DNA of 25,322 bases from a virus: IMG/VR virus record IMGVR_UViG_3300006923_001903, positions 1 to 25,322 of that record; one strand, written 5' to 3'. The translations under genes were made by a program, and so were the position numbers. This document shows, in pieces, positions 5,982 to 19,429 of the stretch (positions are counted from its first letter, which is position 1; the number at the start of each line of letters is the position of its first letter). The notes beneath the pieces were generated by a model that was not told the origin of the DNA, ran no database searches, and worked only from the letters and a program-made list of their open reading frames with translations.

Positions 5982-6465
5982 GTATGCGAAAAAAGACAAC
6001 GAAGTTAAGTCACCGAGCAGATCTAATCCGTCTGACGCGGGCTTGGATGTATATGCAAATTTACCGGAATCTATTACGATTAGCCCGGGCAAAAACAGAA
6101 CGATCCCCACTGGATTACGATTTGGAATTCCTCACGGCTATATGCTTCAGGTTTGTAATAGGTCCAGTATGGGCGCGAAACGTTCCCTGATCGTAGGAGC
6201 GCATATTATTGACTCGGGGTATGATGGTGAAGTCTTTATCGATCTTCATAACATAGGTTGCGAAAGTCAATTGATTAATAATCAAGACAAGATAGCACAA
6301 CTAGTTTTAGTACCAGTAGTTCATTTTCGCGCGCGCCAAAGCGATACGAGAAATCTATATGAGCACCAAGGCTTGACTATTAGCAGCCGAGGAGCCGGCG
6401 CTCTGGGCAGTACCGACCAGCCCCCGGCGCATCCTTTAAATGATATCCCTGTCGGTGGATTTTAA
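5971..6465 (+). CDS. dut: dUTP diphosphatase (dUTPase), trimeric type
   Basis: This 164-residue enzyme hydrolyses dUTP to dUMP and pyrophosphate, keeping uracil out of DNA and feeding thymidylate synthesis. The five motifs of the homotrimeric family are readable: SDAGLDVYA (21-29), NRSSMGAK (63-70), HIIDSGYDGEV (78-88), DKIAQLVLVPV (106-116) and the glycine-rich SRGAGALGST (139-148). Motif 5 has Ala-Leu where many members have Gly-Phe, so the stacking aromatic residue is missing or displaced. A short unusual tail rich in proline follows motif 5. It overlaps its upstream neighbour by 11 nt and abuts the next gene through TAATG. Confidence 0.95.
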   Translation: MIIEYAKKDNEVKSPSRSNPSDAGLDVYANLPESITISPGKNRTIPTGLRFGIPHGYMLQVCNRSSMGAKRSLIVGAHIIDSGYDGEVFIDLHNIGCESQLINNQDKIAQLVLVPVVHFRARQSDTRNLYEHQGLTISSRGAGALGSTDQPPAHPLNDIPVGGF

Positions 6466-6725: not shown

Positions 6726-7188
6726 GTGGCTCACCGGATCTGGAGAGCCAATATCCTTTGACGAGATACTGAAGATTGTTAAAAAGCACTCAGAAGCAAA
6801 AGGTACAGTATACGTTGGCAGCGACAGTTTTCTTCATAAGAAACAGTGTGTGTTTTCGACAGCAATATGCCTGCACAAAGCCGAAGGACAGAAAGGCGGC
6901 CGATACTTCGTCAAGAGACTGACCTTTGGGGCAGGAAGATTCTCAGTCTTGATGGTTAGGATTGCAACAGAAGTTCAAAACTCTATTGATGTTGGAATGA
7001 AACTTATGCGACATTGCCCACAGATTAACATTGAGTTGCACTTAGATGTAAGCAGTGCAAACAAGAATACTAAAACGAGCAAGTTCTCGGATATGCTGAT
7101 TGGGTATACGAAAGGAAATGGTTTTGATTGTAAGGTTAAACCTGAAGCTTTTGCTGCATCTTCAATAGCAGACAGGCACTCAAAATAA
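6718..7188 (+). CDS. DUF458 / YkuK-like ribonuclease H-fold protein
   Basis: This 156-residue protein resembles the DUF458 (YkuK) family, which is predicted to adopt an RNase H-like fold. Visible motifs are VYVGSDSFLH (metal-binding aspartate in the first strand), FSTAICLH, LHLDVS and the C-terminal VKPEAFAASSIADRHSK, whose late Asp-x-x-x-Lys is typical. The biochemical activity of the family is not established; nuclease activity is an inference from the fold. It overlaps the DUF3310 gene by 8 nt, and the next gene follows after a strong AAGGAGG. Confidence 0.82.
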   Translation: MTEWLTGSGEPISFDEILKIVKKHSEAKGTVYVGSDSFLHKKQCVFSTAICLHKAEGQKGGRYFVKRLTFGAGRFSVLMVRIATEVQNSIDVGMKLMRHCPQINIELHLDVSSANKNTKTSKFSDMLIGYTKGNGFDCKVKPEAFAASSIADRHSK

Positions 7189-7197
7189 GGAGGAAGG

Positions 7198-8223
7198 GTG
7201 AAGAAGGGATTATCATATGATGATGTGTTGCTGGTACCACAATACAGTGACATAGAAAGTAGAAGGCAGGTTGATATTGGAAGTGATCTAGGCGAGCATC
7301 TTCATTTTAATTTGCCGGTTGTTTCAAGCCCAATGGATACTATCACCGAAAGTGATATGGCGCTAGCTATGCACCACGCCGGCGGCCTAGGCTTGGTTCA
7401 TCGCTATAATAGTATCGAAGAGCAGGTTAAACATGTTGCGTTAGTTTTAGCAAAAGATACGAAAGCTACTGTTGGTGCTGCGATCGGTATGACGGATGAT
7501 TACGAGATCCGCGCCATGGCTCTTAGGGCCGTCGGAGCACAAGTACTTTGCGTCGACGTCGCTCACGGCCATCATTCGGTGATGGAAAGGTGCTTAAAAA
7601 CTCTCAAAGATAGGTTCGGAGAGTCAATCCATCTGATGGCCGGAAACGTCGCGACACTTAAGGGTTTTGACGCTCTGGCCTCCTGGGGAGCGGACTCAAT
7701 TCGAGTCGGAATTGGAGGCGGCTCTATATGCTCAACACGTTTGGTTACGGGACATGGAATTCCAACCTTTCAGAGTCTTTTGGAGATATCACAGACTACT
7801 TATAGTTCGAAGATAATAGCAGATGGCGGTATAAAAACCACAGGAGATATGGTTAAAGCCTATGCTGCCGGCGCAGACTTTGTCATGATAGGGTCGATGC
7901 TGGCGGGAACTAAGGAGACTCCCGGTGAAACCTTTTCCAGTAACTCAGGGAAAAAGTATAAAGTATACAGAGGTATGGCCTCCTCTGCCGCGCAAATCGA
8001 TTGGAGAGGAAAGTCATCAACTCCGGAGGGGATATCGACTACCGTTCCGTATAAAGGAGGTGTTGAGCATATCCTTCAAAATATTAGTGGCGGCATTCGC
8101 AGCGGCCTTTCTTATTCAGGTGTACACAACTTGTCAGAACTTCGATGTAAAGCAGATTTCTTACGACAGACAAATTCAAGCCAACTAGAAAGCAACACTC
8201 ATATTCTCCGGAGGTATAGTTGA
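7198..8223 (+). CDS. IMP dehydrogenase / GMP reductase family enzyme without CBS domains
   Basis: This 341-residue TIM-barrel protein contains LSYDDVLLVPQ (5-15), DVAHGH (120-125), the catalytic loop GIGGGSICSTR with Cys178, IADGGIKTTGD (207-217) and ADFVMIGSMLAG (226-237). It therefore belongs to the IMPDH/GMPR family. It has no CBS pair and its length fits GMP reductase (about 347). The Arg-Tyr dyad expected in the IMPDH flap is not visible, and the flap reads RGMASSAAQIDWRGKSSTPEG, which matches neither enzyme perfectly. IMPDH would oxidise IMP to XMP; GMPR would reduce GMP to IMP. The second would supply IMP to the purA product encoded downstream. Translation starts at a GTG 4 nt after a near-perfect Shine-Dalgarno. 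Confidence 0.9.
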   Translation: MKKGLSYDDVLLVPQYSDIESRRQVDIGSDLGEHLHFNLPVVSSPMDTITESDMALAMHHAGGLGLVHRYNSIEEQVKHVALVLAKDTKATVGAAIGMTDDYEIRAMALRAVGAQVLCVDVAHGHHSVMERCLKTLKDRFGESIHLMAGNVATLKGFDALASWGADSIRVGIGGGSICSTRLVTGHGIPTFQSLLEISQTTYSSKIIADGGIKTTGDMVKAYAAGADFVMIGSMLAGTKETPGETFSSNSGKKYKVYRGMASSAAQIDWRGKSSTPEGISTTVPYKGGVEHILQNISGGIRSGLSYSGVHNLSELRCKADFLRQTNSSQLESNTHILRRYS

Positions 8224-8561
8224 AAGATCCGACGATACCAGATCCTAAAACACGAAAAAAATTCATGTTTTACGATACAGAAAAGAGACAGGCTGATTTG
8301 AGAATACGTTTGCGACACGACGGCCTGAATCAGTCTCACTTCTTTCGCGCTATGATAACTGGATATTTGGAAAACGATCCAGATATAGTTTCCTACTTAA
8401 GCCGCTATAGGGGTGATAACAATATACAGGGAATAAACAAAAGACAGGCTTCCGAAAGACTCATAAAGAAGGGAGCGGAGACCAAAAAGATATTTGCTTT
8501 GGATAAAAACGATATTGAAAATGTATTTGATCTGATTGCAGAGGAGCACCCGGAACTATGA
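8220..8561 (+). CDS. Small ribbon-helix-helix-like protein, phage hypothetical
   Basis: This 113-residue protein starts with TTG, overlapping the previous stop by TTGA and preceded by a strong CGGAGG. Residues 22-55 (DLRIRLRHDGLNQSHFFRAM.., then GYLENDPDI) have a basic strand followed by two helices, as in MetJ/Arc-type ribbon-helix-helix DNA-binding proteins. The C-terminal part is charged and predicted helical. A transcriptional regulator is a reasonable inference, strengthened by the sigma-like gene that overlaps it. I know of similar proteins in marine phage genomes but not of an assigned function. Confidence 0.6.
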   Translation: MKDPTIPDPKTRKKFMFYDTEKRQADLRIRLRHDGLNQSHFFRAMITGYLENDPDIVSYLSRYRGDNNIQGINKRQASERLIKKGAETKKIFALDKNDIENVFDLIAEEHPEL

Positions 8562-8794
8562 AGTGCTTAAAAGTGTGTCGGCAAGTAAACTTTCCTTGTT
8601 CGGTGAAAGAGTGTAGATCGTGGATTGAGTATGAAGAAGATTTGAATTGTATTCACGAGGCCATAAGAAAGAATGGAAACATGACATTAAGAGAAGTTTC
8701 AGAGCGTCTAGGCGTTAGTTTTGTAAGAATTAAACAGATAGAAGAAAAAGCATTAAAAAAACTAAGCAAAATGATCAAGAAGGATACTATTTAA
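8558..8794 (+). CDS. Sigma-70 region 4-like helix-turn-helix protein with Cys-rich N-terminus
   Basis: This 78-residue protein has Cys residues at about 3, 7, 14 and 19, possibly a zinc site, and then a helix-turn-helix matching sigma-70 region 4: NMTLREVSERLGVSFVRIKQ followed by IEEKALKKL. In sigma factors this region binds the -35 box. On its own it could act as a phage regulator that redirects host RNA polymerase or as a transcriptional activator; there is no region 2, so it is not a complete sigma factor. It overlaps its upstream neighbour by ATGA. The recurring promoter in this window is housekeeping-like, so its target promoter is unknown. Confidence 0.75.
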   Translation: MKCLKVCRQVNFPCSVKECRSWIEYEEDLNCIHEAIRKNGNMTLREVSERLGVSFVRIKQIEEKALKKLSKMIKKDTI

Positions 8795-8835
8795 ATTAGT
8801 AAAAAGTGCATTTGTATTATTTGCATACTATTTAA
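8784..8835 (+). repeat. Short direct repeat flanking an AT-rich gap
   Basis: The 11-mer ATACTATTTAA occurs at 8784-8794, spanning the stop codon of the preceding gene, and again at 8825-8835. Bases 8795-8872 are AT-rich and hold no convincing TTNACN-N16-TATANT promoter. The repeat could be an operator or a phage-specific promoter element for the acidic-protein gene. Confidence 0.4.
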
Positions 8836-8872
8836 TTTAAACCGTATTTCTGTTTTTTAAAGGAGAAAAATT

Positions 8873-9379
8873 ATGAAAAAGCGATTGCTTAAAGAAGAGA
8901 CAACTCGCAGATTTATGAAGTTAGCCAACTTGCAGCCTATCAAAGAGGGCTACTTCGAAGAAGAAGAAGATCCCGAAGTTGGGATGGACGCTCTTGGAAC
9001 GGGTGAGCCTGAGATGGGTGAGCCTGAGATGGGTGACGAAGAGGCAACCCTCGACGCCGAACCCGAAGGCGAAGGCTGCACGGACGATGTTGTTTCGCTA
9101 GTCGACGCAATTGCTGCTGCGATTGAGCAGGCAACTGGTTGTCAGATGTCCGTCGCGAACGATGGCCCAGCCGAAGAACCCCCTGTGGACGATGCCCTTC
9201 CGGTAGAAGATGAAGGACCTGTCATGGAAGCTGACACCGCACTAGAGGAAGACGATGGCGTTGAAGAGGCTTTAAACGAGGCCAATATTCAACTAGCTGA
9301 TGATAGAGAAGAGTGGCTTGTCAAAGAGACTCTGCGTAGAGTTACAAAAAGATTGGTTAAGGCCAGCAAGAAAGAGTAA
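8873..9379 (+). CDS. Acidic low-complexity phage protein
   Basis: This 168-residue protein has a basic N-terminal segment (MKKRLLKEETTRRFMKLANL), a very acidic Glu/Asp/Pro-rich middle, a short hydrophobic helix (VVSLVDAIAAAIEQATGC, about 76-93), another acidic stretch and a basic C-terminal helix (KETLRRVTKRLVKASKK). The acidic part contains a tandem GEPEM-GEPEM repeat encoded by two copies of about 15 nt. The opening resembles a motif I associate with marine T4-like phage proteins, perhaps virion or prohead-related, but I cannot assign a function. A strong AAAGGAG precedes the ATG and a strong terminator follows. Confidence 0.75.
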   Translation: MKKRLLKEETTRRFMKLANLQPIKEGYFEEEEDPEVGMDALGTGEPEMGEPEMGDEEATLDAEPEGEGCTDDVVSLVDAIAAAIEQATGCQMSVANDGPAEEPPVDDALPVEDEGPVMEADTALEEDDGVEEALNEANIQLADDREEWLVKETLRRVTKRLVKASKKE

Positions 9380-9406
9380 TCGTTAAATAGTTTAAATAGA
9401 ACTACA

Positions 9407-9440
9407 AAACCTGCTAGAATAAACTAGCAGGTTTTTTTTT
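9407..9440 (+). terminator. Rho-independent terminator
   Basis: CCTGCTAG pairs perfectly with CTAGCAGG across a 6-nt loop, followed by nine or more T residues. It lies about 30 nt after the acidic-protein gene and directly before the Shine-Dalgarno (GGAG) of the next gene. Confidence 0.95.
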
Positions 9441-9451
9441 GGAGATAAATT

Positions 9452-9847
9452 ATGGAGTCGATAGATTTTGATATGTTTAATGCCCTCTTCTGGTACTTAA
9501 TGGGTATATTTTCTTATAAAATTATATCAAAGGTGTTGAATCTTATCGCATCTTTGGCTCTTTTTCAAGAAGCGTTACTTAGCTCGATCGCTCTTCTCAA
9601 GCATGCAAGCGACAACTACGAATTAGCTAGCAATCACGCGTATGAGAACAGAGCAGAGTCTGATCGCGAAGGAGCTAACCATGCTCGCGATGGAGACCAG
9701 AAAGCGCTGGAGTTTTGGCGCAGACTGGCAGTGATTAATATAGTTAACATGACCCCCAAGAGATTTCGAGCGATGATCGTGTTTGATGATTGGAGGGGCG
9801 CTATGAAATATTTAAATAAAAAAGGAATAGAAGATGCTGAATATTAG
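9452..9847 (+). CDS. Membrane-associated hypothetical protein
   Basis: This 131-residue protein has hydrophobic segments at about 8-22 and 28-50, likely membrane-embedded or amphipathic. A charged central region rich in Asn, Glu and Arg and a C-terminal part (RRLAVINIVNMTPKRFRAM) follow. No family is recognised. A GGAGATAAATT precedes the ATG. The 14-nt overlap with the following ClpP-like gene suggests translational coupling, although the gene is not obviously related to proteolysis. Confidence 0.65.
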   Translation: MESIDFDMFNALFWYLMGIFSYKIISKVLNLIASLALFQEALLSSIALLKHASDNYELASNHAYENRAESDREGANHARDGDQKALEFWRRLAVINIVNMTPKRFRAMIVFDDWRGAMKYLNKKGIEDAEY

Positions 9848-10469
9848 TAAAAAGGACAAGAAAGAAGAGCCTGAAGCTTCAATAAGCTTGGCAGATTTAG
9901 ATTCGGCCCTCTCCGAAGCGCCAAAGATTAGGACGGTTGGTATATATGGCGACATTAACGAAGAAAGATGTTCTGAAGCAATATACGGCCTTAAGTATTT
10001 GATGCTGTGCAGCGACCCCCCACCAGAAGACTCAGAAGAGAAGCCTCCATATGGAGAACCAATTGAGTTTTGCATTTCAACCTATGGTGGCTCGGCTATG
10101 GATATGTTCGCTGTCTATGACACCATGAGGGAAATTAGAGAATATTGTCCAATTCAGACTGTCGGAATGGGGAAGGTGATGTCCGCCGGCGTCCTGCTGC
10201 TCGCCGCCGGTACAAAAGGCGAAAGAAGAATTGGCAAGAATTGCAGAGTAATGATTCATGGTGTCATTTCTGGTCAGCACGGCCACTTACACGACGTTGA
10301 GAATGAGTTTGAAGAAGCAAAGATCACTCAAAAGTTATATGTTAAGGCGTTAGCTAGCGAAACAAATATGACAGAGAGCCATCTTCGCAAATTAATTCAG
10401 AGAAAGACCAATGTTTATATTGACGCGAAAGAAGCTGTAGAATTGGGCATTGCAGATATTATCGTCTAG
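9834..10469 (+). CDS. ClpP-like serine protease
   Basis: This 211-residue protein has the ClpP/crotonase-type fold signatures. The segment GMGKVMSAGVLLLAAG aligns with the ClpP catalytic-serine region and places Ser117 at the nucleophile position. MIHG gives His142, and YIDAKEAVELGIAD supplies a likely Asp197. It has a charged N-terminal extension of about 30 residues and a Pro/Glu-rich insertion at 60-75 not seen in ordinary ClpP. ClpP normally forms a tetradecamer fed by an unfoldase such as ClpX; no phage unfoldase is visible here. A role in prohead maturation or host-protein turnover is possible. Confidence 0.88.
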   Translation: MLNISKKDKKEEPEASISLADLDSALSEAPKIRTVGIYGDINEERCSEAIYGLKYLMLCSDPPPEDSEEKPPYGEPIEFCISTYGGSAMDMFAVYDTMREIREYCPIQTVGMGKVMSAGVLLLAAGTKGERRIGKNCRVMIHGVISGQHGHLHDVENEFEEAKITQKLYVKALASETNMTESHLRKLIQRKTNVYIDAKEAVELGIADIIV

Positions 10470-10475
10470 GAGAAA

Positions 10476-11348
10476 ATGATGGGATGGTGGATAAACAATT
10501 ATAACAAGAGATCGGCCAAGAAGTTTGGATGGGATCCAACATGGTTTAATGTTGAGAAATATAACTCAGAACTAGAAAGGGAAGTTAAGGATTTCCAAAA
10601 AGCCCACGACCTTAAGGTTGACGGGATGGTTGGAACCAACACTTTTAGACGCTTACAGCTGCATCATGAAATGCACCAAGACTCGATTGAAGGTATGAGT
10701 AGTCTGATGGTAAACGGTAAATTAATACCGATCGCTTGGCCGAAAGTAAGAAGAGACTTGCTTCCCTCAAAATGTTATAAGACTTCTAGAAAACAAAGAA
10801 AGCCTCATGTTATCGTAACTCATTGGGATGTTTGTACTTCTGCTGATTCTTGCAAGAGAGTATTAGAGAAGAGGGGCATTTCCACACATTTTGTAATCGA
10901 CAACGATGGAACGATTGTTCAACTAGTTGATGCCAATAATATTGCTTGGCATGCCAGAGGGTCAAACAACAATTCAATTGGTATTGACTTATCTAATGCT
11001 TATTATTTAAAGTATCGCCCACGCTATAAGAGAATGGGCCTAGAAGCCCGTCCGGTTCTCATGGATAGCAGAGTCCATGGTCGCCGCCTTAAGCCGCATT
11101 TGGGCTATTATCCTGCGCAGTTAGAGGCATATAAAGTGTTAATTGACTTTCTGAACAAGGAGCTAGGAATTCCCCTAGAATATCCGAAAAATGACGATGG
11201 AAGTTTATGTACTGGTGTATATCGCGATGCCGTGAAGGGTAAATTTAAGGGTGTAATCAATCATTACAATTTGACTAGAGGTAAAATTGATACTGCTGGT
11301 TTAAAAGTTGATGAAATTATTGAATCTATTAAGAAAGAAAGGAGCTAA
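10476..11348 (+). CDS. Endolysin: N-acetylmuramoyl-L-alanine amidase with peptidoglycan-binding domain
   Basis: This 290-residue protein combines an N-terminal peptidoglycan-binding repeat (VKDFQKAHDLKVDGMVGTNT, about 37-56) with an amidase_2/PGRP-type domain from about 110 to the end. Zinc ligands are readable as His116 in VTHWD, His159 in AWHARG and a C-terminal His in INHYN, followed by GKIDTAG. It would cut the amide bond between N-acetylmuramic acid and L-alanine to lyse the host. No signal peptide is evident, so release would need a holin; none is obvious nearby, though the membrane protein at 9452 is a weak candidate. AGGAGAAA precedes the ATGATG start; the second ATG at 10479 has the better spacing. 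Confidence 0.93.
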   Translation: MMGWWINNYNKRSAKKFGWDPTWFNVEKYNSELEREVKDFQKAHDLKVDGMVGTNTFRRLQLHHEMHQDSIEGMSSLMVNGKLIPIAWPKVRRDLLPSKCYKTSRKQRKPHVIVTHWDVCTSADSCKRVLEKRGISTHFVIDNDGTIVQLVDANNIAWHARGSNNNSIGIDLSNAYYLKYRPRYKRMGLEARPVLMDSRVHGRRLKPHLGYYPAQLEAYKVLIDFLNKELGIPLEYPKNDDGSLCTGVYRDAVKGKFKGVINHYNLTRGKIDTAGLKVDEIIESIKKERS

Positions 11349-11356
11349 TTATTATT

Positions 11357-12868
11357 ATGAATTCAGAAAAGAAAGTATTAAATAGTAAAACTACCTCAAA
11401 GTTAAACCTTGAATCGCTGATGGAAATGGTTGAACAACAAATGTCAGCCATCAATGTTTTAACCGAAGACGAAACTGCTACGATTGATTACTCAAATATC
11501 AATATATCATTGCCAACAATCAAGATCACTGAAGATTGGGGTAAGATGAATTCCAAAGACCGCGCCATCATCGAGAGTTTTTCTAGCCGTATTGGCGGAA
11601 ACTCTTTGGAAGAAAAGATAGCTAGTATTAATACCATCATCTCTGAAAAGAAAGAATCTGCAACCATATCAGAAATTCTCTCTAGCATGGTTGTTTGTGA
11701 AATACTTTCTTCAATCATCAGAGAGTTCACAGAATCAGCTGGTGGTTTTATTTTTGAGGGCTTTCTTGCTGGATTGTTTGGTGGCGAATCTGTGCAAATT
11801 ACCAGCCCCGAAGAGATTGAGGGAATGGACGCTTCAGGGAAGCCAATTACAGATGTGGTATTAAACGATAAGCATTATTCACTTAAACTTTTAGGCCAGT
11901 CAACGGGCGTTAAGGGGTCTTTTGCCAACATGGTAGAACACTTTGCTCAGTTGGATCATGTCATTTACTTGGATGCACGCCGGGTCGGCAAAGACCAAGG
12001 CCTTGAGTTTGGCGAGTTTATAATTACTTTAGAAAACTTCTTGGATGTTTTTGTTACCCCTTTGTTGAAAACTGTTACTGCCAAGGGGGTTAAAGTCGAG
12101 ACGGCTGCAGCAATGAAAGATCTCCTTAAAAAATTAGATTCTGAGGGCAAGCCAGTCAAGTTTATTAGATTTGGCAAGGTTGGCTTTGTTCCTGGCGAGC
12201 GCGCCACTGATTTCGGATTTTCGCCGTCTGGAAGATCTTTGCCGTTGAATGAAGTGAAGGTCACGGGTGATTCTCTTAATAAAATATTAAATAAAGTAGT
12301 GCAGATGTCAGACGAAGAGCTACAAGAATATGCTCCCTTTACAATTAACCACTCAGATCAAAGATTTGAAGGCACCAAAGCCTCAAAATTGTTTGGTTCA
12401 ATGGCTGTTGTTGATATTTTAAAGAGAAACATCGAGTCAGGCAATAAAGAGGCTATTATTGATTCCCTAAGACAGACACCGGGATATAAACAAAACCAAC
12501 AGTTTGAATTTACTAGACATCAGGCTGAATCGATTCGTGGTTTTCGCTCCGTTGGAACTCTAATGATTGGCGAACAATATATGAAACAAACTTGGGCTGC
12601 TTATGCCGATCTCCTAAAAGAAACTATTGGTCCTGTCTACGCAACACTTCAGACTTTCACTGGAAATGTAAATAACTATTTCTTAGCTACAACTGAAGAA
12701 GGGCAGAACAGAAAGCAGTTTGCCTTGGATGCAATTGGGGATGCAGAGAAACTGCAGCAAGCAACTTCAAATGCAGTTCAATCGATCGAAGGCGGAGGAT
12801 CTGGCGGAGAAACACATATGGATTATTCCGTTTCGCCACCAACACGTCGCCCCGGCCCCGGCGAGTAA
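11357..12868 (+). CDS. Large unknown phage protein
   Basis: This 503-residue protein is not recognised. Its N-terminal third is helical and Ser/Thr/Ile-rich (about 1-135). A glycine-rich segment (GGFIFEGFLAGLFGG, about 128-142) follows, then DVVLNDKHYSLKLLGQ, a D..SLK pattern that could belong to a PD-(D/E)XK-like nuclease core, then LDHVIYLDARR. The C-terminal third ends with a Gly/Pro-rich tail. The residue pattern around SLK is only suggestive. It sits between the endolysin and GroEL, and its end abuts the groEL promoter. A structural or DNA-packaging role is equally possible. The nearest Shine-Dalgarno (AAGGAG) is about 13 nt upstream of the ATG, which is longer than usual. Confidence 0.7.
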   Translation: MNSEKKVLNSKTTSKLNLESLMEMVEQQMSAINVLTEDETATIDYSNINISLPTIKITEDWGKMNSKDRAIIESFSSRIGGNSLEEKIASINTIISEKKESATISEILSSMVVCEILSSIIREFTESAGGFIFEGFLAGLFGGESVQITSPEEIEGMDASGKPITDVVLNDKHYSLKLLGQSTGVKGSFANMVEHFAQLDHVIYLDARRVGKDQGLEFGEFIITLENFLDVFVTPLLKTVTAKGVKVETAAAMKDLLKKLDSEGKPVKFIRFGKVGFVPGERATDFGFSPSGRSLPLNEVKVTGDSLNKILNKVVQMSDEELQEYAPFTINHSDQRFEGTKASKLFGSMAVVDILKRNIESGNKEAIIDSLRQTPGYKQNQQFEFTRHQAESIRGFRSVGTLMIGEQYMKQTWAAYADLLKETIGPVYATLQTFTGNVNNYFLATTEEGQNRKQFALDAIGDAEKLQQATSNAVQSIEGGGSGGETHMDYSVSPPTRRPGPGE

Positions 12869-12877
12869 ATTATTTAA

Positions 12878-12906
12878 TTGACTTAAATAGTTATCGTTCT
12901 TATACT
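12878..12906 (+). promoter_or_regulatory. Sigma70-like promoter for groEL
   Basis: TTGACT (12878-12883) and TATACT (12901-12906) are separated by 17 bases. The predicted start is about 12913, giving a leader of about 30 nt. The sequence after the -10 box, ATATGTGTAA, also occurs just after the purA promoter -10 box. Confidence 0.8.
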
Positions 12907-12943
12907 AATATGTGTAAGAATTAGAATATAATAGTGAGGTCAT

Positions 12944-14512
12944 ATGTCTAAGAACTATCAGAACGGCAAAGATTTGCAAGTTCGTATAATTGATGGGGTA
13001 AACAAGCTGGCAGACAATGTAGCTTCTACCCTCGGCCCGAAAGGTCGAAATGTAATATTGCATAAGAAAGGTGGTCGACCAATCATCACGAAGGATGGCG
13101 TCACGGTTGCTGAGTTTATTGAGCTTGACGATCCTTTCGAGAATGCTGGCGCGCAGATTATAAAACAGGCCGCGTCCCAAACAAATTTGAAGGCGGGTGA
13201 TGGAACAACTACTTCCACTGTTCTAGCCAGATCAATTCTAAATAACGCTCAGAAATACCTAGCCGCAGGAGCATCGCCAGTCGAACTTAAACGCGGGATG
13301 GACAAATCAGTTGAAGTGATTATGGATAGACTCAAGGACATGGCGCATCCTCTATCTTCCACAGACGACATAGAACATGTAGCCACCATCTCCGCGAATG
13401 GAGACACTGCTATTGGAAAGATGATTGCCATGGCAGTTGATCAAGCAGGAAAGGATGGTTCAATAACGATTCAGAACGGCAGATCAATGGAGACAACTGT
13501 TGATATTACCGAAGGCTTTAGGTTTGATTCTGGATACTTTGCCTCTGCCTTTGTTACTGATGAGAGAAAAGCAGCGGTCGAATATGATGATGCCATGGTA
13601 CTGGTGACTAATCACAAGATTGAACTGGTGGAAGATATTCTGCCCGTCTTGGAAGTTGTTTCACGAGAAGGCCGCCCGCTGATTATAGTTGCTGAAGAGG
13701 TCGAAGGTCAAGCTTTGGCTGCTTTGATTATGAATACTGTGCGCGGCACCATGAAGATCGCAGCAGTGAAGGCGCCACGCTATGGTCAGGAGAGGAATAA
13801 TATCTTAGAGGATCTTTGTTTATCTGTCGGTGCGACATTTGTAAGCAGAGCTTCGGGTATTAATATAAAAGAGACTAAGCTAGAACACTTGGGCCGCTGT
13901 AAAAAGATAGAGGTGCTTAAGAATTTCACAACTCTTATAAGCGATGGTTGCGATTGGGAAAAAGTTGATGAGCGAATTGAATCTCTCAAGGCGGAAATCA
14001 AACAAACGGATGATGTTCACGAGTGCGAGAGGGTTCAAGAAAGGATATCTAGACTTGCTAGCGGCGTTGCTATAATCAGAGTCGGCGCGCCAACAGAGGT
14101 TGAAATGATAGAGAAGAAGCACAGGATCGAAGATGCCCTAGAGGCTGTCAAATCTGCTCGCGAAGGCGGAATTGTTCCTGGCGGCGGCTCAAGTCTTGTA
14201 AGGTGTATGGATTTTGATGTTGAGGTTGATGGCGAAGATCAACGCTTGGGCGTCGAGATTGTACGCAAGTCTCTTGCCGGGCCATTAAGACAAATGGCTT
14301 TAAATGCCGGGGAGAGTCCTGATATGATAACCAGTCTGGTCAGAAACTCAAAGGCCGACGAGGGGTGGGATTTTAACTCTGGCGAGTTGGTTCCTATGTT
14401 AAAGATGGGCATAATCGATCCAGTTAAAGTTACACGCATTGCGTTGCTTAATGCAGTGTCTGTGGCTTCAACAATTATCACGACTGGTTATGCGATTGTT
14501 GAAAATGAGTAG
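12944..14512 (+). CDS. groL: Chaperonin GroEL (phage-encoded)
   Basis: This 522-residue protein is a group I chaperonin subunit. It contains STLGPKGRNVILHKKGG near the N-terminus, the ATP-binding AGDGTTTSTV (84-93, Asp86), the hinge and apical regions, and GIVPGGGSSLVR near the C-terminus, with EDALEAV upstream of it carrying the catalytic aspartate. E. coli GroEL has 548 residues; this copy ends at VENE without the Gly-Gly-Met tail, so the cavity floor tail is missing. Phage GroEL is known in a few large phages such as Pseudomonas phage EL, where it folds phage proteins. No GroES/gp31-like gene is visible in this window. It has its own promoter, a Shine-Dalgarno (GTGAGG), and overlaps the next gene by 8 nt. 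Confidence 0.97.
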   Translation: MSKNYQNGKDLQVRIIDGVNKLADNVASTLGPKGRNVILHKKGGRPIITKDGVTVAEFIELDDPFENAGAQIIKQAASQTNLKAGDGTTTSTVLARSILNNAQKYLAAGASPVELKRGMDKSVEVIMDRLKDMAHPLSSTDDIEHVATISANGDTAIGKMIAMAVDQAGKDGSITIQNGRSMETTVDITEGFRFDSGYFASAFVTDERKAAVEYDDAMVLVTNHKIELVEDILPVLEVVSREGRPLIIVAEEVEGQALAALIMNTVRGTMKIAAVKAPRYGQERNNILEDLCLSVGATFVSRASGINIKETKLEHLGRCKKIEVLKNFTTLISDGCDWEKVDERIESLKAEIKQTDDVHECERVQERISRLASGVAIIRVGAPTEVEMIEKKHRIEDALEAVKSAREGGIVPGGGSSLVRCMDFDVEVDGEDQRLGVEIVRKSLAGPLRQMALNAGESPDMITSLVRNSKADEGWDFNSGELVPMLKMGIIDPVKVTRIALLNAVSVASTIITTGYAIVENE

Positions 14513-14744
14513 AAGCATACAGATAGGGCAGCTTATATATATACCTTCAAGTGTACGTTTATTAAAATTTGGCATGCTGGGCGAGGCCAGAGCCAGCCAT
14601 CGAGCCTATTCTGTACCAGAGAGGCACCATACAACGAAAAAGCCCGTTAGCTTGCTAGTAACTGAGGTTCAAGATGACCATGTTGGTGTGCATTATTTAG
14701 GCGAGACTTGGTATGTGAGCAGTAAAGATATCTACGAATTATAA
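14505..14744 (+). CDS. Small protein, possible SH3/KOW-like fold
   Basis: This 79-residue protein is read from the ATG at 14505, inside the last codons of groEL (8-nt overlap, ATGAGTAG), so it is probably translationally coupled to GroEL. It starts MSRSIQIGQLIYI, continues with a basic loop, then VSLLVTEVQDDHVGVHYLGETWYVSSKDIYEL. The layout, an N-terminal IGQL/GDLV-like strand, a middle VTE strand and a Trp strand near the C-terminus, resembles the small barrel proteins of the right-hand array, so it may be a distant relative. A GroES function is not supported by motifs. Confidence 0.6.
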   Translation: MSRSIQIGQLIYIPSSVRLLKFGMLGEARASHRAYSVPERHHTTKKPVSLLVTEVQDDHVGVHYLGETWYVSSKDIYEL

Positions 14745-14758
14745 AAAGGGAAAGTTTA

Positions 14759-15010
14759 TTGGAAGACTATAAGTACATTTTATATTTGAAAAGAGGATGC
14801 TCCTTTTGCGTAAAAGCTGAGAACTTTTTAAGCCTGAAAGAAATAAATTATAAACCAATTTACTTCGACCAGAATTTAAAAATATTAGAAGACGTGAAGG
14901 ATGCCTACAGTTGGTCAACGGTACCGATGGTTTTCGAAAAGAGCGAGAATGATTATAGCTTTATAGGCGGCTATACAGATTTGATTGAAAAGCAGGAAGC
15001 TGATGAGTGA
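14759..15010 (+). CDS. Glutaredoxin-like thiol oxidoreductase
   Basis: This 83-residue protein has a thioredoxin fold signature: LYLKRGCSFC with the active-site Cys14-x-x-Cys17, then STVPMVFE carrying the cis-proline (Pro55), then GGYTDL. This is the glutaredoxin layout; the CSFC pair replaces the classic CPYC. Phage glutaredoxins usually reduce ribonucleotide reductase, but no RNR gene is in this window. The predicted start is TTG, the only reasonable codon ahead of the domain, after AAAAGGGAAAG. It overlaps the next gene by 8 nt. Confidence 0.88.
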   Translation: MEDYKYILYLKRGCSFCVKAENFLSLKEINYKPIYFDQNLKILEDVKDAYSWSTVPMVFEKSENDYSFIGGYTDLIEKQEADE

Positions 15011-15350
15011 TCCGAAAAAGAAAACAGTTTATTCACTTCCTCTCGCTGCCCTGCAAGAACTACTAGAAGAGTGCGAAACCCAGCTAGGATATTCAGAAGA
15101 AGTGCTCATACAGAAGCTGGCCGATGATCCTATTAATAGAATGTTGACCTCTTTGTTGTGTGAGTTTTATTCTTCTTCTAACGCCGCACTCAAGCACCTA
15201 GTAGAAGCGCTAGAGGGGTACGAAGAAGAAGATAAGAACCAAGTCTTTATATCTGCAGAAGGCATGTTGATCGTTGAGTCTGCTCTGGTGTCTAGATATT
15301 TGGTATCGAAAGAGCTGCTGAAATATAATGTATCTTTGGCTATAAATTAA
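15003..15350 (+). CDS. Helical hypothetical protein
   Basis: This 115-residue protein is read from the ATG at 15003 that overlaps the glutaredoxin stop by 8 nt (ATGAGTGA). The sequence is mostly helical, acidic and leucine-rich, with no catalytic motif and no membrane segment. A repeated hydrophobic pattern (LPLAALQELLEE, LLCEFY, ALVSRYLVSKELL) suggests a helical bundle. I do not recognise the family. It is the last gene before a noncoding stretch of about 95 nt that contains two hairpins. Confidence 0.6.
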   Translation: MSDPKKKTVYSLPLAALQELLEECETQLGYSEEVLIQKLADDPINRMLTSLLCEFYSSSNAALKHLVEALEGYEEEDKNQVFISAEGMLIVESALVSRYLVSKELLKYNVSLAIN

Positions 15351-15366
15351 TTTGCATCTCCCTGTT

Positions 15367-15419
15367 TTTTTAAGTGCTTTTGGGCTTAAAAAGTATATTT
15401 ATAACAGACGTGTACGTCT
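15367..15419 (+). other. Two hairpins in the gap before the PAP2 gene
   Basis: TTTTTAAG (15367-15374) and CTTAAAAA (15385-15392) form an 8-bp AT-rich stem with a 10-nt loop. A second hairpin, AGACG / CGTCT (15406-15419), lies just downstream. Neither has the GC stem plus T-run of a normal terminator; they may mark a transcript end, a processing site or regulatory RNA. I see no good TTNACN-N16-TATANT promoter in the gap. Confidence 0.4.
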
Positions 15420-15445
15420 CTTCTAATGAAGCTTGATGGAAGGAA

Positions 15446-16075
15446 GTGTCATCAGTGCCGAAGTGTGATAAAGTAAAATATATCTCATTGATGTTGGTTG
15501 CGTATCTCGGATTATATGGATTAATCCAGGCTTTCGTGACAACTCACGAATTTGATTTTATAACTGAATTTGATAACGCCATTCCTTTCATGCCCCAACA
15601 TATATGGATATATCATAGCATACTGCCAGTAATACTGTTGACAATGCTGTCTCTCGTACAAAGTCGAGGGGTTTTTCTTACGACCTTCTGGGCTTGCATC
15701 GTAGCAACTGCAGTTTTGAATGTATCTTATTTATGTTTTCCAAGTTTTTATCCACGCTTAGAGTTTGAAGTCAACACAATCTCTGAAGCTATGTTATATT
15801 TAACAAGACAAATTGATGCATCTAATAACACTTTTCCATCTGGTCATGTAACCTTCGCTTGGATAATGTTTTTGGGTGCTTGCAAAACAGAATTAGCGCG
15901 CAAGGTCGAGGGGCTAAAAGCTTTGTATTTGCTGTGGGCTTTGGGTATAGCACTATCAACTTTAACTTTGAAACAGCACTATTTGGTGGATGTATTTTCA
16001 GGAATCGTTTTGGCGTTTATAAGTTTTTATGCCTCTCGCCTCTTTATTGACTCCAGAGCCCTTGCTCAAACCTAA
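15446..16075 (+). CDS. PAP2-family membrane phosphatase
   Basis: This protein of about 209 residues has five or six predicted membrane segments (about 11-30, 54-71, 77-95, 133-147, 158-172 and 183-200). The PAP2 signature is present in its second and third parts: PSGHVTF with His134, and STLTLKQHYLVD with His178 and Asp182. The first K..RP motif is degenerate or absent. Family members hydrolyse lipid phosphates such as phosphatidic acid or undecaprenyl pyrophosphate, at the outer face of the inner membrane. In a phage it could alter the host envelope or help superinfection exclusion; that is inference. The start is GTG; the GTG at 15455 is about equally likely because the GGAAGGA ends too close to 15446. 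Confidence 0.85.
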   Translation: MSSVPKCDKVKYISLMLVAYLGLYGLIQAFVTTHEFDFITEFDNAIPFMPQHIWIYHSILPVILLTMLSLVQSRGVFLTTFWACIVATAVLNVSYLCFPSFYPRLEFEVNTISEAMLYLTRQIDASNNTFPSGHVTFAWIMFLGACKTELARKVEGLKALYLLWALGIALSTLTLKQHYLVDVFSGIVLAFISFYASRLFIDSRALAQT

Positions 16076-16086
16076 TTACTGGTAAG

Positions 16087-16524
16087 ATGTATAATATTAT
16101 TACCGAAAAAGACCGCCTGGCGAAGCCTTGTGTAGAAATTTCTGATGTACAACAAGGTGAAGCGCTAGGAAAGACTCTTTTAGGGATCTTAGATTCTCAC
16201 AAAACAGGTGTCGGCTTGGCGGCCAACCAAGTGGGCATCGATAGACGTGTTTGTGTCGTTAAAGTTGTCAAACCGATTATTTTAGTTAATCCAAAAATAG
16301 CTGGTAAGTTTGGTAAAATAAATTTCAAAGAAGGTTGTCTTTCGTTTCCTGGGGATTATATTATTACTGAACGATATGCGGATATTGCTGTCAAGGCAGA
16401 CAATCATCCGAATATAATATATTTTAGTACCAAGGAAAATGCTCTGGAGTGCGTTTGCGTGCAACATGAGATAGATCATCTGGATGGTATTACAATGTTC
16501 GATCGCCAAGCAAAGGAGAGATAA
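16087..16524 (+). CDS. def: Peptide deformylase
   Basis: This 145-residue metalloenzyme removes the formyl group from the N-terminal methionine of new proteins. All three family motifs are intact: GVGLAANQVG (41-50), EGCLS (82-86, metal-ligand Cys84) and QHEIDHLDG (126-134, His127, Glu128, His131). It lacks most of the C-terminal extension of bacterial enzymes, as is typical of phage-encoded PDFs in marine phages. The upstream spacing is short (GGTAAG), so translation may depend partly on the PAP2 gene before it. It supports the idea that this phage supplies its own protein-maturation functions alongside GroEL and ClpP. Confidence 0.96.
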   Translation: MYNIITEKDRLAKPCVEISDVQQGEALGKTLLGILDSHKTGVGLAANQVGIDRRVCVVKVVKPIILVNPKIAGKFGKINFKEGCLSFPGDYIITERYADIAVKADNHPNIIYFSTKENALECVCVQHEIDHLDGITMFDRQAKER

Positions 16525-16707
16525 ATGGCTAAATATAATTCAAAAACCGGTTCAAATTACGCGCCAAAGAAAACGTCGCAAGGCAATGGCACATATTCTA
16601 GAACGCCCCACGTAGGCGGAGAGACCTTTTACGGAGGAGCACGCGCAGGAAGTACCCCGAGTAAGGCTCGACGACGAAAGAAGCCGTACAGGGGCCAAGG
16701 AGGGTGA
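16525..16707 (+). CDS. Small basic Gly/Ser/Lys-rich protein
   Basis: This 60-residue protein is rich in Gly, Ser, Lys and Arg (for example GGARAGSTPSKARRRKK) and is likely unstructured and nucleic-acid or nucleoid binding; no family is recognised. A strong AAAGGAGAGATAA precedes the ATG, directly after the deformylase stop. Its end overlaps the next small gene by 4 nt. Confidence 0.65.
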   Translation: MAKYNSKTGSNYAPKKTSQGNGTYSRTPHVGGETFYGGARAGSTPSKARRRKKPYRGQGG

Positions 16708-16853
16708 GTGAGCGTGAACAGCAATATAAGGATCTGCAAGAAAGACATGAGTTGCTGATCCAGGCTGTTCATGATATGTACGATTTGATACGCAAACTGC
16801 GTAATGAAAATCGACAACTTAAGGAAACCATAGAGGAGTATCAAAATGGATAA
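16704..16853 (+). CDS. Short coiled-coil protein
   Basis: A 49-residue frame starts at GTG 16704, overlapping the preceding stop by GTGA, and ends at TAA 16851-16853. It is almost entirely a charged amphipathic helix (heptad-like YKDLQERHELLIQ then LIRKLRNENRQL), consistent with a coiled coil. Function is unknown. The AAGGAGG upstream is unusually close to the GTG; coupling to the previous gene may be important. Confidence 0.55.
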   Translation: MSEREQQYKDLQERHELLIQAVHDMYDLIRKLRNENRQLKETIEEYQNG

Positions 16854-16983
16854 AGAAGAAAGGCCGTATGTTCATGTTTCGCTTCCCCCTCCCGAATGGG
16901 AAGAATATATCAGAAGAATGAAGGAAAAACAAGAGCAAGAAGATCTTGACGAAAAACGCGCCGTTATTATAATTGATATATGA
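16846..16983 (+). CDS. Short acidic/charged hypothetical protein
   Basis: A 45-residue frame from ATG 16846 overlaps the preceding gene by 8 nt and the following gene by 4 nt (ATGA). It reads MDKEERPYVHVSLPPPEWEE, then a charged helix, then the hydrophobic tail VIIIDI. The conserved small-gene chaining supports it as a real gene, although no family is recognised. Confidence 0.55.
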   Translation: MDKEERPYVHVSLPPPEWEEYIRRMKEKQEQEDLDEKRAVIIIDI

Positions 16984-17240
16984 GCAAGAAACGTTCGAAA
17001 AATTATGTAAAAAAGCCGAAAGGTTTTAAGACTTTAAAAGAAAACAAAAAGGTTAGTGACTACATTATTAATCATATTAGACATGGCTGTTACGAGGTAA
17101 TTCTTAAGATAGATGAAAAAATGATTTATCTTACCAACTTTAAGAACAAAAAAGCAGCTGCAAGTTTTATTAAAGCACACAAGAAAGATCAAGTTGTAAT
17201 TGATCCTGAGACTTGCATACCTACACCAGATTTTAAATAA
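16980..17240 (+). CDS. Small basic hypothetical protein
   Basis: This 86-residue protein is lysine-rich at its N-terminus (MSKKRSKNYVKKPKG), followed by an alpha/beta-like stretch (YEVILKIDEKMIYLTNFKNK, then AAASFIKAHKKDQVVID). It overlaps the upstream gene by ATGA. No family is recognised. The next small gene follows after a clear AAGGAG. Confidence 0.6.
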   Translation: MSKKRSKNYVKKPKGFKTLKENKKVSDYIINHIRHGCYEVILKIDEKMIYLTNFKNKKAAASFIKAHKKDQVVIDPETCIPTPDFK

Positions 17241-17250
17241 GGAGAAAACA

Positions 17251-17349
17251 ATGAGCGACATGTATCACTTTGAAAGTGATAAGCTTTTCACAAGGATTAT
17301 GATTGGTTTAGTTATTGGCACAGTAATTTTTGTAGCATTTGGGCTATAA
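17251..17349 (+). CDS. Tiny single-pass membrane protein
   Basis: A 32-residue frame from ATG 17251, with AAGGAG 7-10 nt upstream, encodes [13 protein letters not shown] followed by one hydrophobic segment ([17 protein letters not shown]). It ends 4 nt before tRNA-Arg. The good Shine-Dalgarno and single hydrophobic helix support a real micro-protein, possibly holin-like or a membrane modulator; the function is unknown. Confidence 0.6.
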
Positions 17350-17353
17350 TTAC

Positions 17354-17430
17354 GCGCCCGTAGCTCAGCTGGATAGAGCATCGGCCTTCTAAGCCGAGGG
17401 TCACAGGTTCGAATCCTGTCGGGCGCACCA
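17354..17430 (+). tRNA. tRNA-Arg(TCT)
   Basis: A full cloverleaf is readable: acceptor GCGCCCG / CGGGCGC, D-arm GCTC..GAGC, anticodon stem TCGGC / GCCGA with loop CTTCTAA, and TPsiC arm with GTTCGAA. The anticodon TCT reads AGA, a codon frequent in this AT-leaning genome. The 3' CCA is encoded. Confidence 0.96.
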
Positions 17431-17439
17431 ATAAAAACC

Positions 17440-17467
17440 TTACAAGGCAATGTTTAGTTATTATAAT
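17440..17467 (+). promoter_or_regulatory. Sigma70-like promoter, nearly leaderless arrangement
   Basis: TTACAA (17440-17445) and TATAAT (17462-17467) have 16-nt spacing. The predicted start is about 17474 and the ATG is at 17476. No Shine-Dalgarno is visible for the following gene. This promoter may also drive tRNA-Glu and tRNA-Lys. Confidence 0.65.
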
Positions 17468-17475
17468 ATGGAAAC

Positions 17476-17700
17476 ATGGCATTAAAAATTGGTGATTTGG
17501 TCATTCGCTCTCGCTCCCCCTCCGGTTTCAGCAGAAATGCAATAATCGGACTGGTGGTTGGAGAAATTGACTGGCACTTGGATGATGATCATCGAGGGCG
17601 CAAGCAGAAGCGTTATGAGGTTCTATTTCCAGATGATTTGGAGGCTAGGTTTTGGAATGAGGAAGAGTTAGTAGCAGTTTTAAGCGACGAGGCGCAGTAG
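17476..17700 (+). CDS. Small SH3/KOW-like protein, array relative, ending inside tRNA-Glu
   Basis: This 74-residue protein reads [12 protein letters not shown], then a [11 protein letters not shown] strand, YEVLFPDD and a C-terminal [16 protein letters not shown]. This is the layout of the tandem small-protein family at 19874-25322 (KIGDLV start, IGLVV middle strand, W..EEL.. near the end). Its last ten bases (17691-17700, including the TAG stop) are also the first ten bases of tRNA-Glu. It has its own promoter with essentially no leader. No function is known. Confidence 0.72.
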
Positions 17701-17767
17701 TTTAACGGTTAAAATACCGGCCTTTCAAGCCGTGTGAGTGCGAGTTCGAATCTCGTCTGCGCTACCA
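17691..17767 (+). tRNA. tRNA-Glu(TTC)
   Basis: The acceptor stem GGCGCAG / CTGCGCT contains one G-T pair at position 1, the anticodon loop is CTTTCAA with anticodon TTC, and GTTCGAA marks the TPsiC loop; CCA is encoded at the end. The first ten bases overlap the end of the preceding protein gene, so cleavage by RNase P removes the 3' part of that mRNA. Confidence 0.94.
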
Positions 17768-17774
17768 GATTATT

Positions 17775-17984
17775 ATGAAAAAGATTATATTTTTATTAGT
17801 GTTATTATTTTTTGCTAACTTGCAGGCGTCATGTTACGTACGCCACCCCGGTAGCAGAATTTCTTCACAGCGAATGTACAGAATGGAACCCAGAATTAAG
17901 TGTCATTGGAGATATGTTCGTCGACGAGGCACTGTTATAAGAAAGGTACGCGCTTGTCGACATATAATGGTGAGAGTATATTAA
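17775..17984 (+). CDS. Small secreted basic protein
   Basis: This 69-residue protein has a typical signal peptide (MKKIIFLLVLLFFANLQAS, then C20) followed by a short, arginine-rich mature part with three more cysteines after C20. A lipoprotein is possible because a Cys follows the signal peptide, though the -3 residue is not the usual Leu. The role is unknown; periplasmic phage proteins of this size can affect host envelopes or infection exclusion. It lies between tRNA-Glu and tRNA-Lys and has no strong Shine-Dalgarno. Confidence 0.55.
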   Translation: MKKIIFLLVLLFFANLQASCYVRHPGSRISSQRMYRMEPRIKCHWRYVRRRGTVIRKVRACRHIMVRVY

Positions 17985-17990
17985 TTTTTT

Positions 17991-18066
17991 GCCCTCTTAG
18001 CTCAGTTGGTAGAGCACGCGGCTCTTAACCGCTAGGTCGTAGGTTCGAATCCTACAGGGGGTACCA
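17991..18066 (+). tRNA. tRNA-Lys(CTT)
   Basis: Acceptor GCCCTCT / AGGGGGT (with wobble pairs), D-arm GCTC..GAGC, anticodon loop CTCTTAA with anticodon CTT, and TPsiC loop with GTTCGAA are all present, with encoded CCA. It reads AAG. It begins 6 nt after the previous gene's stop. Confidence 0.94.
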
Positions 18067-18069
18067 AAT

Positions 18070-18330
18070 ATGATAGGAACTATGTCAAAGAAAGAAGAAC
18101 TAGAGGCGATTAAGAAAATTGTTGAAGAAGAGTCAGTGACTGCTTTTGTCGACAATGGCGCGCAATATGAGTTTCATCACTTATGTGGAGATTTAGGAAC
18201 AGTTTTTATTTATGAGCTTCCCGAATCTGAAGTGCCGGTTGAGTTTGAGATGGTAAAAAATTTAGAAAAGAGACTTAAAGTGTTGAGTGCTAAGCATACT
18301 GTGGGAATATTTTACCAAGGTAAGAAATAA
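18070..18330 (+). CDS. Small hypothetical protein
   Basis: This protein of 86 residues from ATG 18070, or 82 from ATG 18082, follows tRNA-Lys almost immediately. The ATG at 18082 (MSKKEELEAIKKIVEEE) has AGGAA about 3-4 nt upstream, so the start is uncertain. It begins with a charged helix (KKEELEAIKKIVEEESV), continues with a mixed segment (FHHLCGDLGTVFIYELPESEV) and a C-terminal helix and strand (HTVGIFYQGKK). No family is recognised. It precedes the purA leader. Confidence 0.6.
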   Translation: MIGTMSKKEELEAIKKIVEEESVTAFVDNGAQYEFHHLCGDLGTVFIYELPESEVPVEFEMVKNLEKRLKVLSAKHTVGIFYQGKK

Positions 18331-18331
18331 T

Positions 18332-18359
18332 TTTACTTTTCTCTTATAGTTGATATAAT
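18332..18359 (+). promoter_or_regulatory. Sigma70-like promoter for purA
   Basis: TTTACT (18332-18337) and TATAAT (18354-18359) have the same 16-nt spacing as the other promoters here. The predicted transcription start is about 18366, giving a leader of about 74 nt that contains the G-rich segment. Confidence 0.65.
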
Positions 18360-18370
18360 ATGTGTAATGC

Positions 18371-18420
18371 GTGGTGGCCCCTTGGTGGGCGGGATCCCGA
18401 TTTGGGGTGTGGGAATGGGG
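18371..18420 (+). promoter_or_regulatory. G-rich purA leader, candidate G-quadruplex or structured regulatory RNA
   Basis: Between the promoter and the purA Shine-Dalgarno (AAGGAG, 18429-18434) lies a stretch far richer in G than its surroundings. It contains G runs at 18387-18389, 18391-18393, 18404-18407, 18411-18413 and 18417-18420, and a perfect CGGGATCCCG palindrome (18390-18399). Five runs of three or more G permit an RNA G-quadruplex; the palindrome and GCCC/GGGC pairing permit alternative stems. It does not match the purine riboswitch consensus that I know. Confidence 0.55.
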
Positions 18421-18439
18421 TTTATTATAAGGAGAAAAT

Positions 18440-19429
18440 ATGCATGCTGATATAGTGATAGGTGTACAACATGGGGACGAGGCAAAGGGTAAAGTTACCC
18501 ATTATTTATGTAAATACAAGGATTACACGCATGTCTTAAGATTCAACGGAGGTTGCAATGCTGGACATACCATCTATCATGAAGGTAAGAAATTTGTAAC
18601 TCACCATATTCCTGCTGGCGTTTTTTATGGGATTAAATCCATTATCGGCCCAGGCTGTGTGGTTAACGCAGAACAATTTTTTAACGAATTACAAGAACTC
18701 AAAGATGGGGGTGTGGATGTCGAAGGAAAGATTTTTATCGCTAAAAACACTCACGTCATTACTAACGCACATATTTTTGAAGAAGAGAGCGAATCAAAAA
18801 TTGGCACAACTAAACGCGGCAACGGGCCTGCATATCGCGATAAATACGCACGACTAGGAGTTCAGGCAGAGGATGTACCCGCTCTAAAAGACTATATAAT
18901 TGATATGTATGAGGAATTTTACAGCGATCAAAATATCAATGTATTGTGCGAAGGCGCTCAGGGTTTTGGGCTTGATATAGATTGGGGCGATTATCCGTTT
19001 GTGACTTCGAGTCACTGTGGTGTTGCAGGCGCCTTGTTGAACGGTATTCCGCATACTTGGATCCGAGACGTTTGGGGTGTTGGAAAAGTTTACGAGACTT
19101 ACGTCGGAGCGAAGACCTTTGAGCCAGCTGACGACCAAGAATTTTTTGCTCGCGTACGTGAGGCTGGTGAAGAATACGGAGCAACCACTGGCCGCGCCCG
19201 GCAGTGTAACTATCTCAACCTAGCTAGCTTGAAAAGGGCCATTAACATAAACTCAGTAAACAAGTTAATTCTAAATAAAGTTGATGTATTGAGAGAATTG
19301 GATACTTGGAAACTATTTAGTGGTGAAGAAGTGGTCTCGTTCGATACCGAAGACGAGATGACAGAGTATATAAAGAAAGAATTATCCAATGTAGAGATTT
19401 ATTTTTCAGACTCAAAACACCGAATTTGA
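18440..19429 (+). CDS. purA: Adenylosuccinate synthetase, short phage/archaeal-like form
   Basis: This 329-residue enzyme belongs to the PurA family: GDEAKGK (12-18) with the catalytic-base Asp13 retained, NAGHT with His43, IGTTKRG (121-127), FVTSS, TTGRAR (249-254, Arg252 and Arg254 equivalents of the aspartate loop) and the guanine-specific NKVD (279-282). Bacterial PurA is about 430 residues, while archaeal PurA and phage PurZ are about 340, so it is of the short type. The canonical reaction joins IMP and aspartate using GTP. PurZ of Z-genome phages works on dGMP and lacks the catalytic Asp; here it is retained, so ordinary AMP synthesis is the safer reading. Two changes, Trp12 to His and Gly15 to Ala near the P-loop, are unusual. 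It has its own promoter, a G-rich leader and a strong Shine-Dalgarno. Confidence 0.93.
   Translation: MHADIVIGVQHGDEAKGKVTHYLCKYKDYTHVLRFNGGCNAGHTIYHEGKKFVTHHIPAGVFYGIKSIIGPGCVVNAEQFFNELQELKDGGVDVEGKIFIAKNTHVITNAHIFEEESESKIGTTKRGNGPAYRDKYARLGVQAEDVPALKDYIIDMYEEFYSDQNINVLCEGAQGFGLDIDWGDYPFVTSSHCGVAGALLNGIPHTWIRDVWGVGKVYETYVGAKTFEPADDQEFFARVREAGEEYGATTGRARQCNYLNLASLKRAININSVNKLILNKVDVLRELDTWKLFSGEEVVSFDTEDEMTEYIKKELSNVEIYFSDSKHRI

Follow-up and report, generated by a model that had tools for sequence, protein, structure and literature searches.

A phage GMP reductase-like enzyme and its linked adenylosuccinate synthetase suggest a route from guanine to adenine nucleotides

What might a phage gain from carrying both a relative of inosine monophosphate (IMP) dehydrogenase (IMPDH) and guanosine monophosphate (GMP) reductase (GMPR), and an adenylosuccinate synthetase, PurA? 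Both genes lie in the window analyzed here, a 25,322-bp fragment of the IMG/VR virus record IMGVR_UViG_3300006923_001903. The IMPDH/GMPR-family gene (P0001; 7198..8223, + strand) has a GTG start at 7198 with the Shine-Dalgarno sequence AAGGAGG upstream (7187..7193, +), and its 341-residue product matches PF00478 over the full length (E 6.8e-107). The purA gene (P0002; 18440..19429, +) has an ATG start preceded by AAGGAG (18429..18434, +) and encodes 329 residues matching PF00709 (E 3e-82). A first-pass annotation had proposed that the two enzymes take GMP through IMP to adenylosuccinate. That route is supported by the residues of PurA, the linkage of the genes, PurB in two relatives, the absence of GMP synthetase from all 20 large relatives, and a separate IMPDH in bacteria that carry related enzymes. 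Judged by its active-site residues, the 341-residue enzyme is quite probably GMP reductase-like, and our best reading of the sequence is that it belongs to a third GMPR-like lineage that would feed IMP to PurA.

Both genes are real and under strong purifying selection. Their closest IMG/VR relatives reach 87% identity for the GMPR-like enzyme and 80% for PurA. Measured against relatives at 70–87% identity, nonsynonymous divergence (dN) in the GMPR-like gene was 0.08–0.15, compared with a synonymous divergence (dS) of 1.1–1.6 (dN/dS about 0.07–0.1); for the PurA gene, dN was 0.14–0.22 and dS was saturated.

We aligned the active site of the GMPR-like enzyme with those of E. coli GuaB, E. coli and Salmonella GuaC, Staphylococcus-type GuaC, phage GuaCs, and cellular short homologues. 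The PF00478 match is uninterrupted by a CBS domain, and the inserted flap segment that holds the IMPDH Arg-Tyr dyad is missing; the lack of CBS domains, the truncated flap, and the lack of the dyad are common to 41 of 41 phage representatives. The first-pass annotation had described the enzyme in these terms and had noted that its flap fully fits neither enzyme type, and the alignment bears out both observations. The GMPR catalytic triad is kept as C178, T180, and E277, invariant in 40 phage proteins. In the alignment, Cys178-Ser-Thr180 (7729..7737, +) corresponds to E. coli GuaC Cys186 and Thr188, and Glu277, in the truncated flap (residues 258–280, RGMASxxAQxxWRG....PEG; 7969..8037, +), corresponds to Glu289. 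E. coli GMPR likewise has a truncated flap and no dyad, and it requires Cys186, Thr188, and Glu289 (Min et al., PMC2525682). Lack of CBS domains is the rule among GMPRs, though with exceptions. Ala261, found in every phage copy, occupies an IMP-site position that is Gly in the canonical IMPDHs aligned (Gly415 in human IMPDH2 numbering). Arg69 (HRY; codon at 7402..7404, +) stands at the site of a conserved Lys in E. coli GuaC and GuaB. It does not vary among 40 phage representatives, and it is shared by Staphylococcus-type GuaC and phage G.

The second protein had been described as a short GTP-dependent PurA that uses IMP, a description with which its conserved core IMP, aspartate, and GTP residues agree. 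This PurA and 32 other phage copies keep D13, H41, K16, T129, R143, Q224, T239, R303, R305, K331, and D333 (E. coli numbering). Among these are the general base Asp13, the acid His41, Arg303 and Arg305 of the aspartate loop, and the GTP-selective K331 and D333, which in the protein’s own numbering are D13, H43, R252, R254, K280, and D282. The short form does not conserve the C-terminal segment that contacts guanine in E. coli PurA, around Ser414–Pro417. The NCBIfam PurA equivalog models gave 274.7 bits (cut-off 402) and 250.4 bits (cut-off 395.6), both too low, and the Pfam family cut-off was passed. Structure searches matched the predicted fold to PurAs, among them the short Pyrococcus horikoshii protein 5k7x, and ranked PurZ structures lower. 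As judged from residues and fold, the protein is a short PurA and not the Z-base enzyme PurZ.

The phages that carry these genes are uncultured myoviruses of ∼160–190 kb, mostly marine, and a search with DnaE found no near cultured relative. One near-full-length relative (G001) carries a tail sheath, large terminase, major head protein, DnaE, DnaB, RecA, and a B12-type ribonucleotide reductase (RNR). Among the 20 large relatives, the GMPR-like gene occurs in 17 and PurA in 15; RNR scored above cut-off in 15. In all 27 sequences that hold both genes, a set that includes near-duplicates and does not represent 27 independent events, the two lie on the same strand. In 19 of them PurA precedes the enzyme by less than 5 kb; in 7, the window included, it follows at a distance of more than 5 kb; and in one (L073) it follows directly, starting 13 bp past the end of the GMPR-like gene. 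Since the pair has been kept through three arrangements, we argue that the two act jointly.

Partner enzymes bear on the direction of flow. Two of the 20 large relatives (G013 and G016) encode Lyase_1 proteins that carry the signature SSTMPQK(V/I)NP and score 442.5 and 431.4 bits with the PurB model PRK09285 (cut-off 446), with no other family near; by these features they are PurB-like. GMP synthetase was found in none of the 20, and all 14 control genomes were positive in the same search. GMPR is favored over IMPDH here because an IMPDH would be expected to have GMP synthetase as its partner rather than PurB. Upstream of purB in both relatives lies a frame resembling SpoU/TrmH-type RNA methyltransferases (L209:3282-3683 in G013 and L210:764-1309 in G016).

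In the proposed pathway, the GMPR-like enzyme would convert GMP and NADPH to IMP and ammonia via a Cys178-linked E-XMP* intermediate (XMP, xanthosine monophosphate), and PurA would combine IMP with aspartate, using GTP, to give adenylosuccinate. PurB, supplied by the host or encoded by the phage in G013 and G016, would release AMP, and phage RNR with host kinases would carry the adenine pool on to dATP for an AT-rich genome. We infer the substrate, direction, and cofactor of the enzyme as well as the benefit to the phage, and we consider it likely that the pair diverts guanine nucleotides of the host toward adenine nucleotides to serve such a genome. The genome had been called AT-leaning, and its guanine-plus-cytosine (GC) content is indeed 42.3% in this stretch and 38.4% and 34.6% in the near-full-length relatives G001 and G013; the demand side of the pathway fits because of the values in these two relatives. 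A comparison of GC content with PurA presence gave a small difference confounded by relatedness, and we did not use it as evidence.

Several observations weigh against assigning the enzyme to GMPR. The IMPDH model TIGR01302 scores higher (289.2 bits) than the GMPR models (171–212 bits), although all fall below their cut-offs, and the best 50 Foldseek matches are IMPDHs. Residue 258 is an Arg, which IMPDH also has, and not the Phe or Tyr of GuaC. Arg270 of the flap (WRG), invariant among the phages and not kept in Legionella, might substitute for the missing dyad Arg. Moreover, water activation by a Thr-Glu pair without Arg418 is possible in principle, with support from simulation and mutants (PMC2525682). 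Finally, 5 of the 17 GMPR-like carriers (G002, G004, G005, G006, and G019), some of them fragments, have no PurA match.

Some of these points would suit the main rival reading, an IMPDH that works without the dyad, in which Thr180/Glu277 or a surrogate Arg270 activates water and which, with PurA, feeds IMP into both purine branches. Such an enzyme would have a precedent for the loss of CBS domains in cyanobacterial GuaB3, an essential IMPDH (PMC13273366). We nevertheless regard this reading as unlikely. Part of the shortfall of TIGR01302 from its 481.5-bit cut-off is due to the missing CBS domains. The GuaB3 model TIGR01304 gives only 79.4 bits (cut-off 342), too low for membership in that family. 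Removal of Arg418 slows IMPDH hydrolysis about 1000-fold (PMC2525682), the IMPDH Gly415 is Ala in all phage copies, and the relatives offer PurB and no GMP synthetase. The T. brucei GMPR is nearer to IMPDHs than to GMPRs by BLAST, yet it works as a GMPR and shows no IMPDH activity, for which two altered IMP-site residues, one of them this same Gly-to-Ala change, were proposed as a possible reason (Bessho et al., PMC4701174); therefore, an IMPDH-like sequence score does not imply IMPDH activity. Bacteria with related short forms also already possess a canonical IMPDH: a full-length enzyme of ∼490 residues accompanies the short form in 14 of the 15 Legionella and Bdellovibrio genomes searched, and the short form is therefore unlikely to be their main IMPDH.

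Phylogeny placed the enzyme more ambiguously. We built an unrooted tree of 85 proteins whose bootstrap did not converge and which contains some long branches; the branching order among the short clades is therefore uncertain. The phage enzymes form one clade (99/98), which includes a few contigs from metagenome-assembled genomes or single cells. One branch (100/99) sets the dyad-bearing canonical IMPDHs apart from all the rest, so that a single change explains the presence of the dyad. GMPR type 1, GMPR type 2, and the Legionella, Bdellovibrio, and haloarchaeal short forms make separate clades, and the haloarchaeal forms join the canonical IMPDHs (98/79). In this phylogeny with GuaB and GuaC, a check that the first-pass annotation had proposed, the phage enzymes fall on the dyad-less side, but outside both classical GuaC clades, which counts against a GMPR identity. 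Classical GuaC models were matched at 196 bits (TIGR01305, cut-off 492) and 171 bits (TIGR01306, cut-off 466), and we rejected classical GuaC membership on these scores and the clade position. The AlphaFold models of the two proteins were good overall, with predicted local distance difference test (pLDDT) values of 85 and 89. In that of the GMPR-like enzyme the barrel was good, whereas values for the Cys loop and some of the flap fell below 50, and we rejected the predicted structure as an arbiter of active-site geometry. Five contigs from cellular genomes, L221 (Pelagibacteraceae single cell AG-430-L09), L222 (WOR-3 bin), L223, L219, and L220, encode members of the phage clade at 52–57% identity; they may be phage contigs and possible pointers to hosts.

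An enzyme in a clade of its own, with no curated equivalog above cut-off and a flap without the Lys/Arg found three residues before Glu in E. coli and Staphylococcus GuaC, could also perform the same chemistry on a different purine nucleotide, whether XMP, dGMP, or a modified GMP, and so serve DNA modification or the clean-up of nucleotides. We hold this to be improbable: no core catalytic residue has been lost, Asp209, which contacts the ribose hydroxyls in the IMPDH/GMPR family, is invariant in the phage enzymes, and the linked PurA and PurB suggest that IMP is the product. More doubtful still is a deoxynucleotide version of the GMPR route, from dGMP through dIMP and deoxy-adenylosuccinate directly to dAMP; if true, this salvage of dG to dA from degraded host DNA would bypass RNR. 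We rejected as barely credible a PurZ-type enzyme that would produce the Z base (2-aminoadenine) from dGMP, in spite of the short length that the phage protein shares with PurZ and the merging of PurA with PurZ in PHROG 1211, because Asp13, Arg303, Lys331, and Asp333 are all kept (Ser, Lys, Phe, and Asn in phiVC8 PurZ), the PurZ model NF038379 gives 129.5 bits (cut-off 300), well below the PurA models, and PurZ folds rank below PurA.

The surroundings in the window include other nucleotide and replication genes. A DnaE-type DNA polymerase III alpha gene (2003..5437, +; PHROG 405, E 1.3e-221) adjoins the PurA and GMPR-like genes in many relatives, and a dUTPase gene (5971..6465, +; PHROG 135, E 1.5e-36) is, by synteny, a conserved neighbor in this nucleotide-metabolism neighborhood. 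Directly upstream of DnaE in G001 lies a PALP-family pyridoxal-phosphate enzyme (L345:12370-13254, E 1.1e-60). Elsewhere, the window encodes a ClpP-like protease (9834-10469), a GroEL-type chaperonin (PHROG 5725; 12944-14512), and a peptide deformylase (16087-16524). A 260-residue protein (21587-22369) has two CCHC zinc knuckles (CGHCYETGHNKSSC and CSYCKDEGHTRRTC) and no PHROG match. Between 19874 and 25257 lie at least eight small proteins of 60–66 residues (starts at 19874, 20055, 20405, 20662, 23223, 24234, 24888, and 25069), which begin with M/V/L-K-(V/L/I)-G-D and end near SESR or SEA. They form an expanded paralogous family, possibly SH3-like, with eight similar proteins in G001 and none in G013.

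The usual interpretation of phage purine genes is that they boost de novo synthesis. Interconversion of G to A, if true, would be a different strategy, in which the host’s existing purine pool is rebalanced to suit a viral genome rich in AT. A function would then also suggest itself for the widespread short IMPDH/GMPR branch of Legionella, Bdellovibrio, and haloarchaea, including the structure 3r2g.

Phage GMP reductases are already known, as are phage PurA and PurZ. Annotated examples of the former, in Cr30, RAS14, and phage G, are of the classical GuaC types, and a paper on pelagimyophages mentions GMP reductase in passing (PMC7029224); phage PurA/PurZ proteins are common, and PHROG 1211 lumps both. 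What appears new is that one phage group links the two genes and in a few members adds PurB; we did not find this combination described in the literature searched, although incomplete coverage makes this weak evidence. The phage PurA shares every tested core catalytic and binding residue with E. coli PurA and is a short form like that of P. horikoshii (PDB ID codes 5k7x/2d7u), but it has 329 residues and about 30% identity to solved PurAs. PurZ of phiVC8 and S-2L belongs to the same superfamily and is likewise short and phage-encoded, differing, in phiVC8, at the substrate residues given above.

Among relatives of the GMPR-like enzyme, the short paralogues of Legionella (PDB ID code 3r2g) and Bdellovibrio are closest in character. 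At 44–50% identity, they resemble it in length, the absence of CBS domains, a short dyad-less flap, Ala at the Gly415 site, and the HR motif. They differ in being cellular, in forming separate clades, and in having flaps a few residues longer, which in Legionella lack Arg270. The literature searched contained no functional characterization of these paralogues, and the genes next to the Legionella and haloarchaeal homologues did not point to a function. RefSeq labels the plasmid homologues and an L. adelaidensis protein guanosine monophosphate reductase, by annotation only. Conversely, 3r2g is labeled IMPDH, a label that is doubtful because the protein falls in the dyad-less short clade. GuaC of type 1 (E. 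coli, TIGR01305) and type 2 (Staphylococcus, TIGR01306) has no CBS domain, no dyad, and the same Cys/Thr/Glu triad, and type 2 also shares the Arg that replaces the active-site Lys; however, both types are only about 29–33% identical to the phage enzyme (tblastn) and lie in separate clades, and the phage enzyme scores far below the cut-offs of both models. The T. brucei GMPR (PMC4701174, PMC7160140) shares with the phage enzyme an IMPDH-like sequence and the Gly-to-Ala change, but it has CBS domains, and its Tyr411 is changed to Ile, whereas the equivalent Tyr257 is kept in the phage enzyme.

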